A DNA stretch of 64,000 bases from Ascidia mentula (Eukaryota > Chordata > Ascidiacea > Phlebobranchia > Ascidiidae). Made by a program: the position numbers and the translations under genes. The notes beneath the pieces are model-generated. The model searched no databases, had not been told where the DNA came from, and was given only the letters and a program-made list of their open reading frames with translations. The stretch spans positions 4,663,001 through 4,727,000 of the forward strand of contig OX387202.1 in assembly GCA_947561715.1 (NCBI GenBank), written 5' to 3'. Of the stretch, positions 1,956 through 57,924 are shown piece after piece; the stretch's first letter is position 1, and every line of letters begins with the position of its first letter.

Positions 1956-2105
1956 CCATTGAAAAAGTGTTCTGTACACGCCTTGTTATTGTACGTAGAT
2001 GTCCTTACGGTCGGGCGATAGGGGATTTTCCTGTTTCATGCGTGGAAACTTTAACCTATGTTTCCACGAAGATTTTGCAATATTATAACACTAATATTTA
2101 GTTTA

Positions 2106-2458
2106 TGTGCAAAAAAAGCCATAATATTGCAAAGCTGCAGACAGGGTGTGTACACGCACTGTTTCGACCTGTAAGGTCTCATCAGTGCAGCTGTTGAGTG
2201 GCACTGTGCTAGCTTTCACACTAGCAGCGAACTAGTCTCTTTGTGGTACCTTTCGGTCAACGTCGATCTGCAGGGTACCCTATACTAGGTACCGAACAAC
2301 AGAGACGACGAACCACTGTGGAGCGCACTATGGCCAAACGGAACTGCTTGGTAACCGATAGTGCAAAAGGCATAAAACACCAATGTAATATATGTGCAAA
2401 AAAAGCCATAATATTGCAAAGCTGCAGACAGGGTGTGTACACGCACTGTTTCGACCTG
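2106..2458 (-). mobile_element. Retrozyme-like hammerhead element, copy 1
   Basis: The element is 353 bp, bounded by two perfect 66-bp direct repeats (2106-2171 and 2393-2458), and flanked by a 13-bp direct duplication AATATTTAGTTTA (2093-2105 and 2460-2472). The two repeats are 287 bp apart, so the insert equals about 1.2 turns of a 287-bp unit. On the minus strand it carries a complete hammerhead ribozyme motif at 2133-2192; the second repeat holds only the 3' half of that motif. It has no coding potential. Small non-coding elements of this kind, with hammerheads and more than one turn of a unit, are called retrozymes in plants and animals. The family assignment is inference; the repeats and core are seen directly. 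Confidence 0.7.
2133..2192 (-). ncRNA. Type I hammerhead ribozyme motif
   Basis: Minus strand 5' to 3': stem I strand AGCTGCA, core CTGATGA, stem II GACC, loop TTACA, GGTC, core GAAA, stem III CAG, a 14-nt loop, CTG, then T-C at 2141-2140, then stem I partner TGCAGCT. Every conserved hammerhead core position is present. Stem I is 7 of 7 paired, stem II 4 of 4, and stem III 3 pairs plus the A15.1-U16.1 pair. Predicted cleavage follows C at 2140 (triplet GTC). The motif lies inside the 2106-2458 element. Confidence 0.8.
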
Positions 2459-3564
2459 CAATATTTAGTTTATTTTTAGCAAAAACGTTGTTGCACACTA
2501 AGAGCATCTTGTTTTTTGCTGGATATGTTTAAAAGCCGTGAATTTCGACACTGTAGAACGTGTGTAGCATTGTCGAACCACGTGGTGAACGAAACAAACG
2601 TTTCGTTTTAAAGATGATTTTCTTATTTTTGAAAAAGCTCTGTGTAATGCCTTGCTAACTATTTTAGTTCGGAAAGAATGATATTTCCAACAAACAGGTC
2701 CGAAACGATAGTTTCTATGTCACGCATGAATCGGGGAAATCTTCATCAACCGTCCGTGAGGTGGGTAATATTATCTACCGTAATTATAGGCACATCTGCT
2801 TTGTGGCCGTTTATTGCGAGTCCAAAAGTCGTAATGACGCTTGCGCGCAATAAAGCAACATAAGGAAAGACGCGTGTGGCAAAGACGCCACATTATCATT
2901 TATTTAAAATACTTACCGTGACCCACTGTAGTTGGTTAAACCACCTGTCAACTTTATGGCCAACAAAAGCTTAGAAGATTTTTTCAACAACTTGTTTATA
3001 AAACACTTTCGCGAAATTCGAGTTAAAGAAGTATTTGCGTACAAGTATTGGAAAAACCTTTTGCAACTACGTTTCAGTTTTCTGTTACTGATGCTGCCAG
3101 ACATATCATAATATAACATAAAAAGCTATTCCGTCAATAAACCTTTTCGTTGAAACAAAATACGACAATACGAAAAAGGTAGCTGACGTGGTCACGCCTC
3201 ATTGCATTTGCATGCCACAGTCGCTTGATTCGTGAAATGTGCCGCGATCCATTCTGCGTAATTGTTACTTGTGTATGTGGTATATTCATGCAATTAATGC
3301 ATGAGAGTTAAGGTGATCGGCAGCATCTAGCGCCCCACCCATGTACCAAGAAGAAAACCTAATCGGGATTCTGTTGGAAACACTTTGCCACAGTTCATCA
3401 ATAAACGTCTGAATCAAACCACCTACTACAGGAAATGAGTAATTTCTATTCTTGGTCTAAAGAGGAACCATGGAATTGTCATCATGAGGTGTTTTCCGCT
3501 TTGGTGTTTGGTGCATGTTTGTTGTTTCATTCATGTTTCTAAAGGTTTCTTTGTTTTGTATTTT

Positions 3565-3880
3565 CTCTCATTTATTATGGCTTTTTTGCACATATATTTT
3601 ATTGGGTTTGATCCGTTAGCACTATCGGTTACCAAGCAGCTCCGTTTGGCCATAGTGCGCTCCACAGTGGTTGGTCTCTGTTGTTTGGTACCCTATAGGT
3701 ACCCAACGGATCGACGTTGACCGAAAGGTACCACAAAGTGGAAATCAGTGTGCCCGCTAGTGTAAAAGCTAGAACAATGCCACAGTCAACAGATGCACTG
3801 ATGAGACCTTATAAGTCGAAGCAGTTTGCACACCCTGTCTGCAGCTCTCAATTAATACGGTTTTTTGCACATATATTTTC
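3565..3880 (+). mobile_element. Retrozyme-like hammerhead element, copy 2
   Basis: Inverted relative of the 2106-2458 element; the shared middle includes the reverse complements of GTGGAGCGCACTATGGCC and TTTCGGTCAACGTCGAT. Both ends carry the same 35-bp stretch (CTCTCA, then TTTTTTGCACATATATTTT), at 3565 and 3845, giving a 280-bp period and about 1.1 turns. The hammerhead on the plus strand (about 3792-3850) keeps CTGATGA and GAAG, but has one mismatch in stem I, one in stem II, and GAAA changed to GAAG. It looks older than copy 1. It interrupts tandem unit A, which units B and C lack, so it inserted after or during the triplication. Confidence 0.65.
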
Positions 3881-5407: not shown

Positions 5408-6210
5408 TTGCACTATTGCGTGAGTGCGCTTTGTTGTCATATTCTCCGTTAACTCTGTTGGAAACACTTTGCCACAGTTCATCAATAAACGTCTGAATCA
5501 AACCACCTACTACAGGAAATGAGTAATTTCTATTCTTGGTCTAAAGAGGAACCATGGAATTGTCATCATGAGGTGTTTTCCGCTTTAGTGTTTGGTGCAT
5601 GTTTGTTGTTTCATTCATGTTTCTAAAGTGTTTTTGTTTCAAATTTTATTTAACTTAACTTGTATATTATTATTGATATATATTTCACCGTGGTTAAGTT
5701 TTCTTGAAGTTCCATTTTGTGGAATTGTTCAAATAAACGTCATAACATTCTTAGCGAATGTTGACAACATAAATTGTGTGTAAGCTGCAGACAGATGGCC
5801 ACTGTTTTGACCTAAAAGGTCTCATCAGTGCAACAGCTTACACACAATTCATATTATTGGCTCCACATTGGTTAACAACATATTCTCACATATTTTTGCT
5901 TTGTTGAATAGATCAAATGTTATCGCTATAAAACTTATCACAGATCTATCAAACTATTCCGTCACTGCTAGGTAAATGTTTAATTTTAACACAAACAAAC
6001 ACGCCCACTCAGTAAGCGATGACTAGCTGGGCCCAAATGGCGCAACATAAAATCCGAACAGAAAAAGGCAGTTTTCATTGGGCTGGTTATAAATATCTGA
6101 CAAGCCTTTCAGTCAAAGTCGTGTGCTTGGGCCTATTAATGGTTTTGGAAAACATTTCAAGTGGGCCTATCCTTTTTCATATGCTTAGGTTGTGAGAAAG
6201 TAGCAATACG
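5408..6210. repeat. Tandem duplication unit C, abutting the kinase gene
   Basis: Third tandem unit. It ends directly at the 5' end of the kinase gene (start codon 6219), so the repeated blocks are the upstream region of that gene; copies A and B may be duplicated promoter DNA. The unit is interrupted by a short hammerhead repeat at 5772-5849. Its promoter role is inference from position only. Confidence 0.75.
5772..5849 (-). ncRNA. Short hammerhead-derived repeat with long stem I
   Basis: A 78-bp insert in unit C with perfect 16-bp inverted ends (AATTGTGTGTAAGCTG and CAGCTTACACACAATT). On the minus strand the interior reads CTGATGA, GACC, TTTTA, GGTC, then AAAA instead of GAAA, then CAG, a 7-nt loop, CTG, T-C, and TGCAGCTTACAC. 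The inverted ends therefore form an extended hammerhead stem I of about 15 pairs with a small bulge. The G12 to A change would be expected to inactivate cleavage. It could also be viewed as a tiny MITE, but the shared core with the other copies favours a hammerhead origin. Confidence 0.65.
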
Positions 6211-41624: not shown

Positions 41625-44600
41625 TCACAGTTGTGATTGATTTTGTTGAAGTTTCGCAGCGAGATTCTCAGCCAACTTGTCCATGAACTCATGTGTATTC
41701 AGGTAATCTGACCTTGTCACACTGAAAGTAAAAATGTTTCAAAAATATGCCTAAACATAAAAAAAACATGCCATTAACAAGCAAACGGGTAATGCTGTTT
41801 TTAGTATGCTGTTGACTTGTTCGATGTTTTTTATTAGGACTCAAGAGACTTAGTGGTAACTATGCAGTCGCAACTGATGGGTAACAAACTAGTTGCGACC
41901 GCACAACCTGCCTAAAGTCAATGGTACCTCCAGGCTCTGCATCAGAAAAAGCATGACAGGTGCACTGAAAAAACTTAAAATACTAAAGCTTACTAAAAAC
42001 ATAACATGTCATTTACTTAGGCATTCCTTTGACGCAAATTGCCAAGTCTTTGGTCATGTGACCTGCTTCAATAGTCTCAGTGCAGACTTCTTCCAGTGCT
42101 TTAGAGAAATCTGCCAAGGGTTTGTTGTTGTCAAGTTTTGCGCGATGGCCCAAACCTCTACTCCAGGCAAATATCGATGCTGGAACAAAGGCAAAAATAG
42201 TTGGATGAAATGTGTAGAACAAGACATATGTACACTGAAGCATCGTAAGCATTATAAAGAAGTTAATTTTTTGCAAAATAGAAACTTAATTTGGTGTTAC
42301 CAGAATAAGTGTCTAATGTATATTAAGTTAAAAATAGGATTAGAAGTTAATAATTTAAAACATTGCTGAGAATTTATTTAGTAACTATAGATACGGCATC
42401 GATCGACAGCCTACCAGGGTGGCTTTGTTCACCGATACGGTGTAGACATGTAGTTTATTGTTTTTTTATCAATAATTTGAAACATCATATAATTAAGGTC
42501 GCTGGTAGAATGACAATGCTCAGTAGAGGGATAGATCCTGGCAAAATTAAGGATACGGTCTTACCAATAGGATTAGTTGATGTTTCTAATCCCTTCTGGT
42601 GTTGCCTGTAGTGTCGAGTGACCGTCCCATGAGCAGCTTCGGCTTCGACAGTTTTTCCATCAGGACAAACCAGAACGCTGGTCATCATGCCCAGTGAACC
42701 ATAACCTGACAATATAGATGTTTTAGTAACGCTGGTGGTTACCCAGAAAATTCTCAACTGACTGATGGAACACATGATGAAAAATAAACAACACTGCAGA
42801 CAGGGTGTGTGCACATGGCTTTTTTTGCACATATAATAAACAATACATTTGGCAAATAATGGTTAGAGAATGGAATATTGAGGTATTCTTCAAGAAAAAT
42901 TGTTTATCATGTCATTAAGACAATAAGAATTTTATTCACTATTAATTACAGTTTCCTTTATTTTATAACTCATTAAACTATGATTTGATTGGTGGAATGG
43001 GAATGTGAATTAACCTATGTGACCAGTTCGTTAAAACACTTATAAAAGTATGTCATGTTCCACCTTGAGCAACTGAATCTGACTGAACATCACCATCATA
43101 GTTCTTGCAAGCCCACACGAAACCTCCTTCTGACTTAAGTGCGTATGCGACCATGTCATCAATCAGTCGATGTTCGTACCATATGCCCGCTGCTTCATAC
43201 TCGCTCTTGTATGTGCTGGAAAAAAAGATAACAATATTAAATAACCAGTACAGAATTTTCAATTTTTTTCTGATGGTATTGGTTATTGCTGGAATGTGCA
43301 TCAAAGGGAAACTGTACATAAAGTACAAGCTAAATTCTCTTGATTGGCACTCTTTTGTAAAAGACTGACTTTTGTAATGTAAAAAGTACATTTGCCTTCG
43401 TGATTTTCCCTCGCTTCGTCAGGTGTAAATGTACATAAAGTGTACAAATAAATCCGCCTATCATTGTGTCAGTAAAAGTCATTGAAATCTCTACTTTATT
43501 AATAATAATATTACTTAAGTTTGTTTAAGGAAAAGAATATTTGCATCTCAAGTATCTCCCAATCCTACATTCATAAAAAATGGTTTCTGTCTAAAATGGA
43601 AATTTCTTTTGAAAAAATTTTGCTGTGTCACCATTTAATGTTGTCAAAGCATAAAGTTGCCAGTCAAGGTTGTTATTCAAAGATGGAAAATTACAACCAG
43701 ACCTTTGGCCTAATGTTGTGGAAAAGGGTACAAAGTCCACAGACACACAGAGGAAGTTGTCCATGGTTTGTTTAACATGACGGAGTGGTTAAACACAGAA
43801 TGAATGGAATTTATACAGGCAGAAGGAAATGGAGAAGGCAGTTTTGCTTTTTACTTCCACACACAACAAAGATGAAATACCTTTCATAAATTTCTTGAAA
43901 TATGTCTTTAAATCGTCCGTCATATTTCTTTAATATGGTGTTTTTGGTGCTGAGGTAAAGAGGCCATTTCTTCTGCAGTGCAAACTTCATGCATGAATGA
44001 GCAAAGTCTCGGATGGAACTGTCAGTGTTGTACATCGCCATGGAAACCCCTCCTCCATCTAAATATTAAAGTTTGGACAAAACAACTTTCAGCTATATTT
44101 AACAAACTGTTTATAATTATGGTTGAAGTATATATTGCACACTTACCTTTAAAAGTGAAAACAGGATATTCCGTTACTTCTCCGCTGGAGGAAGTGTATT
44201 TGATGGTTACTTGCCCAGGACCAGGTACAACAAAGTCTGTCGCCTTATACTGCAAAAAGAACAATTATCTTCATTACCAACTTCTTGACCGAAAATAAGA
44301 AAAATAATTGACCCTGTAGTAGAAACAAAAATAATAATGCAAAAATACAAGATTATTGCAGTGGGAGTATGACAACATATACATCAGTCTTGATACCTGA
44401 TCAGCATGGGCATGTCTTCCTATTACAATAGACTTTTTCCATGTGGTTACCAATCGCGGGATATTTTTACAGATGATGGCTTCCCGGAAAACTGTCCCAC
44501 CCAGAATATTTCTGTGGAAGTAATTATATATTGTTTCTTCTCGTAATTGAGTAGTGTCATATTCCTACATTGCCGAAAAGGAAACCTTTTGCTAAGGAAA

Positions 44601-52380: not shown

Positions 52381-52455
52381 AACTGTTTTGATCTATACGG
52401 TTTAATCAAGCTGCACTGATAAGACCTTATATTGGTGGAAACAGTTGCCATCTTT
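52381..52455. repeat. Back-to-back degenerate hammerhead repeats
   Basis: On the plus strand AAGCTGCACTGATAAGACC then GGTGGAAACAG resembles the hammerhead core with CTGATAA in place of CTGATGA. Immediately to the left AACTGTTTTGATCTATACGG then TTTAATCAAGCTGC is a decayed copy on the other strand. The two share the central AGCTGC, making an imperfect palindrome. Both cores are altered and probably inactive. Confidence 0.45.
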
Positions 52456-52599
52456 AGGCAGTCCACAAAATTGACTGTATTTCTCATCACCAAGCAAACT
52501 GTTGCAATTTAACACAGTACATTCCGTACAAAAATCTGCCCTTTGGGCGATTCTGTTGGTCATCACGACCACGTGATCACCAGGTTTCCGATACATCTT

Positions 52600-55726: not shown

Positions 55727-57924
55727 AAACCTGCTGCGAATTGTATTCAATAATAGACTGCGTGACATTTTGAAATGATTATAATGATTATCGTACCAAG
55801 CAAGCGAATTCGTACTTAGAAATACTGTCAATGCTATCAATATTTCTTAAAAGATCAACATTTTTCGGGTGCGAATTTGTAGCAGGGTTAAGTTCGTCGC
55901 CGGTTCACAAAAATTTTGAACTACTTTAAGTTCAACGCTATGTGTTTGGGGTTTGTATGCAAATATATCTCGTTTAGAGTTACAGATGAATAAAGAAAAC
56001 TCAAACGAAATGGAAAAACTTTGGTGATGAAACACGGCGCTCAACGACGTCACAGTGTTTTTTATAGAAATATTTTTAAAGGAAAGTAAAGCAACAATTT
56101 TTTCTGCCGAGAAATTGGCAACGAACACAAATTACTTGGGGAAAAGTAAAGCAGCGTACGAACACTTTCCCTTTTACACATTTAGTTTGTTTTTCTGGGC
56201 GATATCCGATTTAATTGTTCTTGTCAACTGTAAAGCTAACACAAATGCGTCATGATGTATATTTGCATATATACATTAATACAAGGTAAAACGGACACAA
56301 GCAGCGCTCAAAATCAATCGTACACCGTCTATGCCCTCCAACAATGACTAGGAGGGCGTGAAGGCCAAAGTTTCGCGCTGAGCTAACTGCAAACGTTTTC
56401 CAATATTCTTTTACTATTAGAAACTTAATAAATGGCATTTATTTAAATCAGGATAACATATTTTCGCGCTTCACTAAAAATAATCATTACTTGATAAGCA
56501 AAGTGGAGCCAATGATATGAAGTGTGTAATTTGCATACAGATGGTCACTGTTTCGACCTGTAAGGTCTCATCAGTGCAGCTGGTGTGACTTTCAAACGAC
56601 TTTGCTGACCCAACGGCCAAGCAAAGACTTCCACTTTATGGTGACTATACAATCACGAGCAAGAAAATCAGGCCATCACGGCATGATGCCAGCTGGTGTG
56701 AACGCCCGCCACTTTAGATTGCTATGTAGAGCTTGACATCATGAATCTCAAGCTTATTATATCTCCGTTGGTCAATTTAATCTCATGATTTCTCCGCTGC
56801 AAAGTAACTCGAAGGCTGTACAAGAAATATCAACAAATACATAATGGTTAAACAGTTAACAACGAATTGTAGCCATATAATTATAACATTATCCTTTTTG
56901 GATTAAAATGTATGTTTACATGCGAAATTAAGCTGAAAAGCAAAAGCATAGCCAATGCACGTTTTTGAAGATCAACTTACAAAGGAACAATAACGGCACA
57001 CACAATGTTCTGTCCTACAGTCTTGTAAATATTTGTAATTATGGGTATCCTTACATGTGAAGAAATGTATCATGTTGACACTGCAGTCAGCACCCTGGTA
57101 TATGCCACCTATACAATATCACAATAATCACACCAGAGACTACTTAGTAGTCTCTGATCACACACACTGCTGCTATCATGCTTCCAAGTATCGGGGATGT
57201 TGTTTTTCTCATAGGGTATAAAATATACAAATTCGTTGCGTGCTCATTCCTAATGCAAGGGGCGTTTTGTTCGCCTACTGTTAGCTAACAATTGCACTGT
57301 ATTGCGTCATAAGTAAAGCTTATTACGAAGACAAACTTAACGAGATGTATGGAAAGACGACAAAGTAACTGTGTGATTACTTTTCTTGTTTTTGCGTTTT
57401 ACTACAACTTCGTCTGAACGTTTTTCTGTCGTCGTCAGCCGTTGCGTGTTGTTGAACTTTGCTTTGTTTTAATTGCTTCCGTCTTGCAAGTAGAGCCAAA
57501 TTGCCTGCAGATGCAGCACGCAGATGTAGTTTTGCTAAACAAAATCAGACAAAATGTTTGTTAAAAGTTTCAGATTTATTTTGCTTATAAATTTTGAGGT
57601 GTGTTGTTAAGTTTGGTTTAAAATAACATGTGCGCTGGGTTTACGGCACTGCTAACAGTAACTTTTATGTTGGAGTCGAAAAATAGGACCTGGTTTTGAA
57701 GGTGCTGAAAGTAAAATAATTGTGGGAATGTCATGAGACGCTTTAACAGAACTTAAACAAATTGTATTTCTTCACTCATGTGGGTCAACTGTCAGTGCAG
57801 AAAATTGTGCAGTTGATTTGCATCAATTTTATGTTTGTCTTTATTCAGTCTCTGTTAGTTCAACGAGTTCCGTTTGTTGGGTGATTGACAGTTTCCTGTG
57901 TATGAGTTGGCGTAAAATTGATGA
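55727..57924. other. Intergenic region upstream of HYKK
   Basis: About 2.2 kb with a hammerhead repeat (56532-56582), a CACACCAG-family end (56676-56705) and a small palindrome AGAGACTAC/GTAGTCTCT near 57134. The HYKK promoter and any 5' UTR exons should be in the last part. No other gene recognised. Confidence 0.5.
56532..56582 (-). ncRNA. Hammerhead ribozyme motif with intact core
   Basis: Minus strand: AGCTGCA, CTGATGA, GACC, TTACA, GGTC, GAAA, CAG, TGACCAT, CTG, T-A, TGCA. Both core strands and stems II and III are perfect; stem III here is a compact hairpin. Stem I keeps only TGCA/TGCA (4 pairs), and the cleavage triplet is GTA instead of GTC. The core is identical to the 2133-2192 motif, so it is the same family. 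Confidence 0.7.

Follow-up and report, generated by a model that had tools for sequence, protein, structure and literature searches.

Hammerhead retrozymes of the ascidian Ascidia mentula share a two-site, head-to-head insertion anatomy with Penelope-like elements of the same genome

A 64,000-nucleotide stretch of the Ascidia mentula genome (contig OX387202.1, positions 4,663,001 to 4,727,000; hereafter the window) contains a non-coding metazoan retrozyme, an element of a known kind. What is new here is the anatomy of its insertion, which involves two sites and two strands. The ends of the copies, their orientation, the pairing of the two end types within an insert, the length of the target duplication and the variants shared between arms were observed directly, as was the same pattern in the Penelope-like elements (PLEs) of this genome. 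Judging from these sequence features, we consider it probable that the retrozyme is mobilised by PLE enzymes, with self-cleaved RNA circles serving as the template.

The window insert (Table 1) is delimited by a perfect direct repeat of 68 bp (2104-2171 and 2391-2458, spacing 287) and by a flanking duplication of 14 bp, AATATTTAGTTTAT. As a control for such duplications, the longest word common to 400 random pairs of 39-mers from the window was 9 bp. A preliminary description of this sequence had recognised the repeat, its 287-bp spacing and the duplication, giving lengths of 66 and 13 bp and placing the insert at 2106..2458. The features themselves stand, whereas their lengths are corrected as above and the boundaries move to 2107-2459. 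Throughout, unit positions are counted such that nt 1 immediately follows the cleavage site. Just left of the duplication, 2074-2086 reads TTTGCAATATTAT, which equals unit nt 7-19 in inverted orientation and may mark where an older insert ended; close by, at 2041-2068, is a hairpin whose 9-bp arms are perfect. The window also encodes a SPAG1-like protein whose nearest match is from Phallusia mammillata (53% identical across 67% of the query length), and the 8 named matches among the first 12 listed are all ascidian.

Table 1. Features of the retrozyme insert and its flanks, in window coordinates
Feature	Position	Strand	Basis
Retrozyme insert, 353 bp, 1.2 units of 287 bp	2107..2459	minus (= RNA sense)	repeat and duplication boundaries; at least 92 genome matches
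Left target-site duplication copy, AATATTTAGTTTAT	2093..2106	.	exact match to 2460-2473
Right target-site duplication copy, AATATTTAGTTTAT	2460..2473	.	exact match to 2093-2106
Complete type I hammerhead ribozyme, predicted cut between 2140 (C17) and 2139	2133..2192	minus	core and stems read from sequence
Second hammerhead pass, 5'-truncated, from the 3' strand of stem II on; ribozyme incomplete	2420..2458	minus	68-bp repeat 2391-2458
Site B, RNA 3' end of the window insert, unit nt 33-36 from the cleavage site	2104..2107	minus	family end clusters
Candidate remnant (TGCAA) of a very short opposite arm begun at site A	2457..2461	plus	sequence; family D5; weak

On the minus strand, the insert carries stem I (AGCTGCA/TGCAGCT, 7 bp), CTGATGA, stem II (GACC/GGTC) and GAAA, and its stem III consists of CAG/CTG plus an A-U pair before the cleavage triplet GTC. 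We take position 2140 to be C17 of the hammerhead core numbering. All core positions had been reported earlier, with stems of 7, 4 and 4 pairs; the core is indeed complete, with stem III counted here as three pairs plus the A-U pair. The core match is far beyond chance. Across the 195.8-Mb genome, a strict core pattern matched 947 + 961 = 1908 times, compared with no match at all for its reversed control, and a 29-base core word allowing up to 3 mismatches matched three times in the window and never in 100 shuffles. No Rfam hammerhead family reached its gathering score with the window motif (RF03152, the best, had a local score of 28.3 bits against 56.3, and RF00008 24.9 against 48.5), and a genome-wide search with RF00163 found nothing, a result that is no proof of absence according to the search output itself. 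With all scores under the cut-off, the Rfam models were set aside as too insensitive a detector here, so the motif rests on its core and on the genome-wide count. Motif searches were also the means used in PMC7229834, where the Rfam gathering score is not a criterion. The same core was present in 38 distinct sequences of family loci selected for core and stems, and stem I is near invariant across this stem-bearing set.

Searching the genome with the window insert returned at least 92 matches that were 85-100% identical and occurred as single, tandem and inverted copies, these family 1 matches being spread over nine contigs; the genome searches score the best candidates only, so the numbers they give are minima. 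The units fall into at least two families, one of 291 bp (family 1, which includes the window's 287-bp unit) and one of 284 bp (family 2). In the blastn comparisons made, the hammerhead is the sole stretch that the two families share, the family 2 loci having been picked by their hammerhead motif. In an array at C70:2.55 Mb, the four fully printed units are identical at 291 bp each, and arm identity to the unit is 99.8-100%. The GC content of the units is 0.458-0.478, below 50%. No long reading frame was found in the unit, the longest ATG frame on a head-to-tail trimer being 70-92 aa, so the element is not itself a PLE, which would encode a reverse transcriptase and a GIY-YIG endonuclease.

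Metazoan retrozymes have been described as elements with a type I hammerhead, a unit of 150-450 bp, GC under 50%, tandem copies and a duplication of more than 4 bp (PMC7229834). The Ascidia element has all of these features, with duplications longer than 4 bp at 27 of 30 sites. Its earlier identification as a metazoan retrozyme is therefore borne out by unit size, type I core, tandem copies, the lack of a long frame and the duplication. The genome copies also keep a 287-291 bp period, most of them starting at two fixed RNA positions, rather than the period-ignoring ends that had been named as contrary evidence. The main text of PMC7229834 describes tandem copies, and a word search of it returned no inverted ones; the two start sites and the 12-bp duplication present here are likewise not described in the text available. 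Plant LTR retrozymes, which are reported to have circular RNA (PMC4918200), resemble the present element as small non-coding hammerhead elements, but they differ in having type III hammerheads within LTRs and 4-bp duplications (PMC7229834). In the open-licence literature on retrozymes, PLE hammerheads, PLE tails and twin priming, we found neither a description of this insertion anatomy nor a report of retrozymes in this host; the only tunicate report found there is for Didemnum vexillum, with 9 type I hammerhead loci (PMC8704543).

The RNA 3' ends of family 1 fall mostly into two clusters across 35 mapped sites. Thirty of these sites were tabulated, L005, L023, L054, L056 and L057 being left out for their complex or duplicated structure, and the 24 with usable target duplications gave 17 ends at site A (nt 1-13), 23 at site B (nt 31-46) and 1 elsewhere. 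The two sites are about 26 nt apart, and both lie just 3' of the cleavage site. Pairing of the two end types was pronounced among the 20 fold-back inserts available as letters, of which 17 were A/B, one was B/B (L099), one paired another end with B (L093) and one was without clear type (L028); under independent choice at one half, A/B in 17 of 18 has p = 7e-5. Four more family 1 pairs appear to be A/B, judged by coordinates alone (C67:6.335, C71:1.133, C2:17.310 and C1:6.451 Mb, the B end of the last reading nt 51 and taken as over-extension), while the coordinate pairs at C69 (three like copies), C72:9.79 and C73:12.70 Mb had no clear end type. The five fold-backs of family 2 include A/B pairs in L036 (with its near-copy L038), L059 and L031, and L032 (ends 24 and 11) has no clear type. 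Microhomology between primer end and RNA exceeded that of random flanks at A (1.47 vs 0.47 nt) and at B (2.09 vs 0.62), an excess that is only suggestive because duplications called at maximal length inflate it. In the window copy, reverse transcription on the left strand would have begun at B, and the base C (TGC including shared bases) that precedes the duplication at the right edge is a weak candidate for the remnant of an A arm.

The orientation of the arms was equally regular. Opposite-strand family 1 neighbours followed the order minus then plus in 21 of 21 cases among all 92 matches, with RNA 3' ends outward, and the order plus then minus did not occur. The minus-then-plus order also held in 15/15 family 1 pairs (from 73 of the 92 matches) and in 10/10 family 2 pairs; these sets overlap and include duplicated loci, 4 of the 21 family 1 pairs being like copies at C2:12.07-12.28 Mb. 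Across the 30 tabulated sites, 12 bp was the commonest duplication length (exactly 12 bp in 12/30), and 21/30 fell between 10 and 15 bp, although the exact duplication was shorter than 10 bp at 9/30 sites, which counts against insertion by a PLE enzyme. DNA-level duplication of a satellite or fold-back repeat, with the hammerhead as a relic, could also produce tandem and inverted arrays, and some copies do resemble parts of larger duplications (C2:12.07-12.28 Mb and, for the PLE, C1:10.2 Mb). We regard this origin as extremely improbable: target duplications and set ends are found at dispersed sites, on nine contigs for family 1, and tandem duplication would not be expected to give 12-bp duplications.

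Several other copies lie in the window; these, like the two-site, two-strand structure of the family, go unmentioned in the preliminary description. An older family 1 copy at 3573-3877 (+) is 84% identical to the window insert and in the opposite orientation. A 98-bp head-to-head family 2 insert at 5777-5874 has its A end on the left and its B end on the right, with ACAACATA on both sides. A 41-bp micro-insert at 42794-42834, with its arms assigned by eye, combines 22 nt of A arm with 19 nt of B arm and is flanked by an 11-bp duplication carrying one mismatch. Further family 2 copies occur at 52409-52472 (+) and at 56479-56656 (-), the latter with its core intact from CTGATGA to GAAAC. A PLE pLTR remnant at about 43340-43440 (-) carries a minimal hammerhead-like motif and by eye resembles the L076 family.

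The genome contains at least 134 GIY-YIG matches, and one PLE family has a unit of 2870 bp with RVT_1 and GIY-YIG domains. By its likeness to PLE hammerheads, judged by eye, this family carries what we take to be a minimal hammerhead-like motif; an Rfam hammerhead scan of the PLE loci did not find it. PLE ends cluster at nt 60-70 (A') and nt 99-105 (B') after the presumed cleavage site, with a spacing of about 40 nt compared with about 26 nt in the retrozyme. Seventeen PLE pairs, reduced to 13 by merging 4 repeated copies, comprised 11 A'/B', 1 A'/A' and 1 without clear type (C69:7.93 Mb); with the pair at C70:9.25 Mb added, 12 of the 13 fold-back inserts that could be typed had one A' and one B' end (p = 0.0017). 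The A'/A' exception, at C67:6.43 Mb, counts against the rule, as does the B/B retrozyme insert L099, which is an older one. The order minus then plus held in 19/19 endonuclease pairs and 17/17 pLTR pairs, and all five PLE target duplications tested measured exactly 12 bp, equal to the commonest retrozyme length. The retrozyme thus has head-to-head arms, two start sites, a tail on one arm and the PLE duplication length, and differs from PLEs in having no protein and a hammerhead with a stem III. A PLE with the retrozyme's own hammerhead or A/B start region was not found in 30 PLE loci and 11 of 33 further loci or pieces, a result that counts against PLE mobilisation. Candidate PLE-borne retrozyme sequences (L090, L062 and L080) proved to be decayed retrozymes lying in PLE loci. 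A PLE array at G000:C67:6133715-6147185 contains five head-to-head units, 100% identical where read, and a 159-bp filler close to the middle (L075 35-193).

L1 elements undergo twin priming, and head-to-head copies could in principle reflect the same process with a LINE-type (non-LTR) retrotransposon as the mobiliser. In L1 twin priming, however, one strand starts from the 3' tail and the start of the other may lie at any internal position, whereas both outer ends of the retrozyme lie at set sites about 26 nt apart. Moreover, the 12-bp duplication and the two-site structure equal those of the PLEs in this genome, and a LINE mobiliser appears very unlikely.

PLEs with minimal hammerheads coexist with metazoan retrozymes, and this coexistence, the shared hammerheads and the tandem copies led the authors of PMC7229834 to regard PLEs as a strong candidate for the enzyme. 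The purified Anolis PLE of PMC11167929 cut both target strands, extended each of them and initiated at two adjacent internal positions of the RNA. Its start site is reported there without a difference between strands, which contrasts with the A/B pairing described here and counts against our reading. In Adineta vaga, PLEs have head-to-head inverted pLTRs with a 31-bp tail on one, together with partial tandems, and the duplications named for them are 8, 9 and 10 bp or absent, compared with 12 bp here (PMC3846280). The A'-B' interval fits such a tail on one inverted pLTR, and the combination of a tail and head-to-head repeats suggests two primings on one RNA as a simple account.

Several steps of the proposed mechanism are inferred, namely that the RNA cleaves itself and is ligated into circles, that the enzyme is a PLE protein and that the cut leaves 3' overhangs, as is the order in which the two primings occur. 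Tandem retrozyme copies would be transcribed, and the hammerhead would process the RNA to unit-length pieces of about 290 nt, which would then be ligated into circles. A PLE protein, with its reverse transcriptase and GIY-YIG endonuclease, would cut the target with a 12-nt stagger and 3' overhangs. Each target 3' end would then prime on the same RNA, one at A (nt 1-13) and the other at B (nt 31-46), after which the two cDNA strands would be extended around the RNA, in many cases beyond a full turn, and be joined head to head. Gap filling would make the 12-bp duplication, and abortion of one arm would leave a one-directional copy such as the window insert. A more specific proposal, which we hold tentatively and rate at slightly short of an even chance, is that PLE enzymes pair on one RNA circle and thereby oblige the cut strands to prime at different docking sites, A and B, directly 3' of the hammerhead junction, in PLEs and retrozymes alike; the hammerhead-made circle would be the shared template, and the PLE tail would correspond to the A-B distance. 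The PLE dimer predicted in PMC11167929 would account for the use of two sites, one per subunit.

Several observations bear on the nature of the template. With A and B just 3' of the cleavage site, a cleaved linear monomer would give arms of at most about 46 nt, so any longer arm was copied through the cleavage site from an unbroken template; the arm of L098, from nt 35 to nt 4, ends close to that site. At four inherited variant positions, the arms of one insert differ in 2 of 83 comparisons and passes within an arm in 5 of 67, compared with 1669 of 6086 (27%) between inserts; these comparisons are non-independent and leave out the long array, L099, L054, L056, L057 and pieces under 60 nt. When all positions are counted, again excluding the long array, the contrast is small, as arms differ at 89/4441 (2.0%), passes at 68/3583 (1.9%) and inserts at 2.8%, figures that also include post-insertion mutations. 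We read these counts as suggesting that both arms were copied from a single RNA molecule, or from molecules of identical sequence, although the large differences between the arms of L020 (33/345) and L092 (15/153) count against this.

The window insert had been interpreted as 1.2 turns of a circular RNA. A template unbroken through the cleavage site, a length of more than one unit and near-identical passes favour that interpretation, but the same signs fit an uncleaved multimeric transcript of a tandem array, on which the PLE machinery would act while the hammerhead has no role in transposition. Arrays of identical units do exist, and hammerhead mutants of the Anolis PLE inserted as well as the wild type in vitro (PMC11167929). 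Nevertheless, arms are concentrated at lengths slightly beyond a full turn (291-361 nt in 15 of 43 and 221-290 nt in 6, in a search that favoured long copies and with L019, L028, L099 and the long array left out in addition to the five complex or duplicated sites), and the hammerhead is the stretch common to both retrozyme families by blastn, with the family 2 loci being motif-picked. A multimeric template seems to us less likely than not, though far more likely than a LINE or satellite origin.

If circles are the template, their folding may matter. The minimum-energy fold of the hammerhead motif differs from the hammerhead, and stem I has a pair probability of at most 0.05 in predicted circles, which counts against self-cleaved circles under an energy model that leaves out hammerhead tertiary contacts. 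In the predicted circle ensembles of both families, a CACUG:CAGUG hairpin rivals the hammerhead (pair probability 0.74-0.97); it is part of the minimum-energy fold in family 2 only. CAGUG is kept in the main forms of both retrozyme families, whereas the rest of loop III differs. By hiding the core, this hairpin might keep the circles closed.

The enzyme that moves animal retrozymes has been an open question, and the same architecture and 12-bp duplication in retrozymes and PLEs constitute structural evidence at many sites. With this anatomy in hand, the role of the RNA circle becomes directly testable, in a relative of vertebrates.
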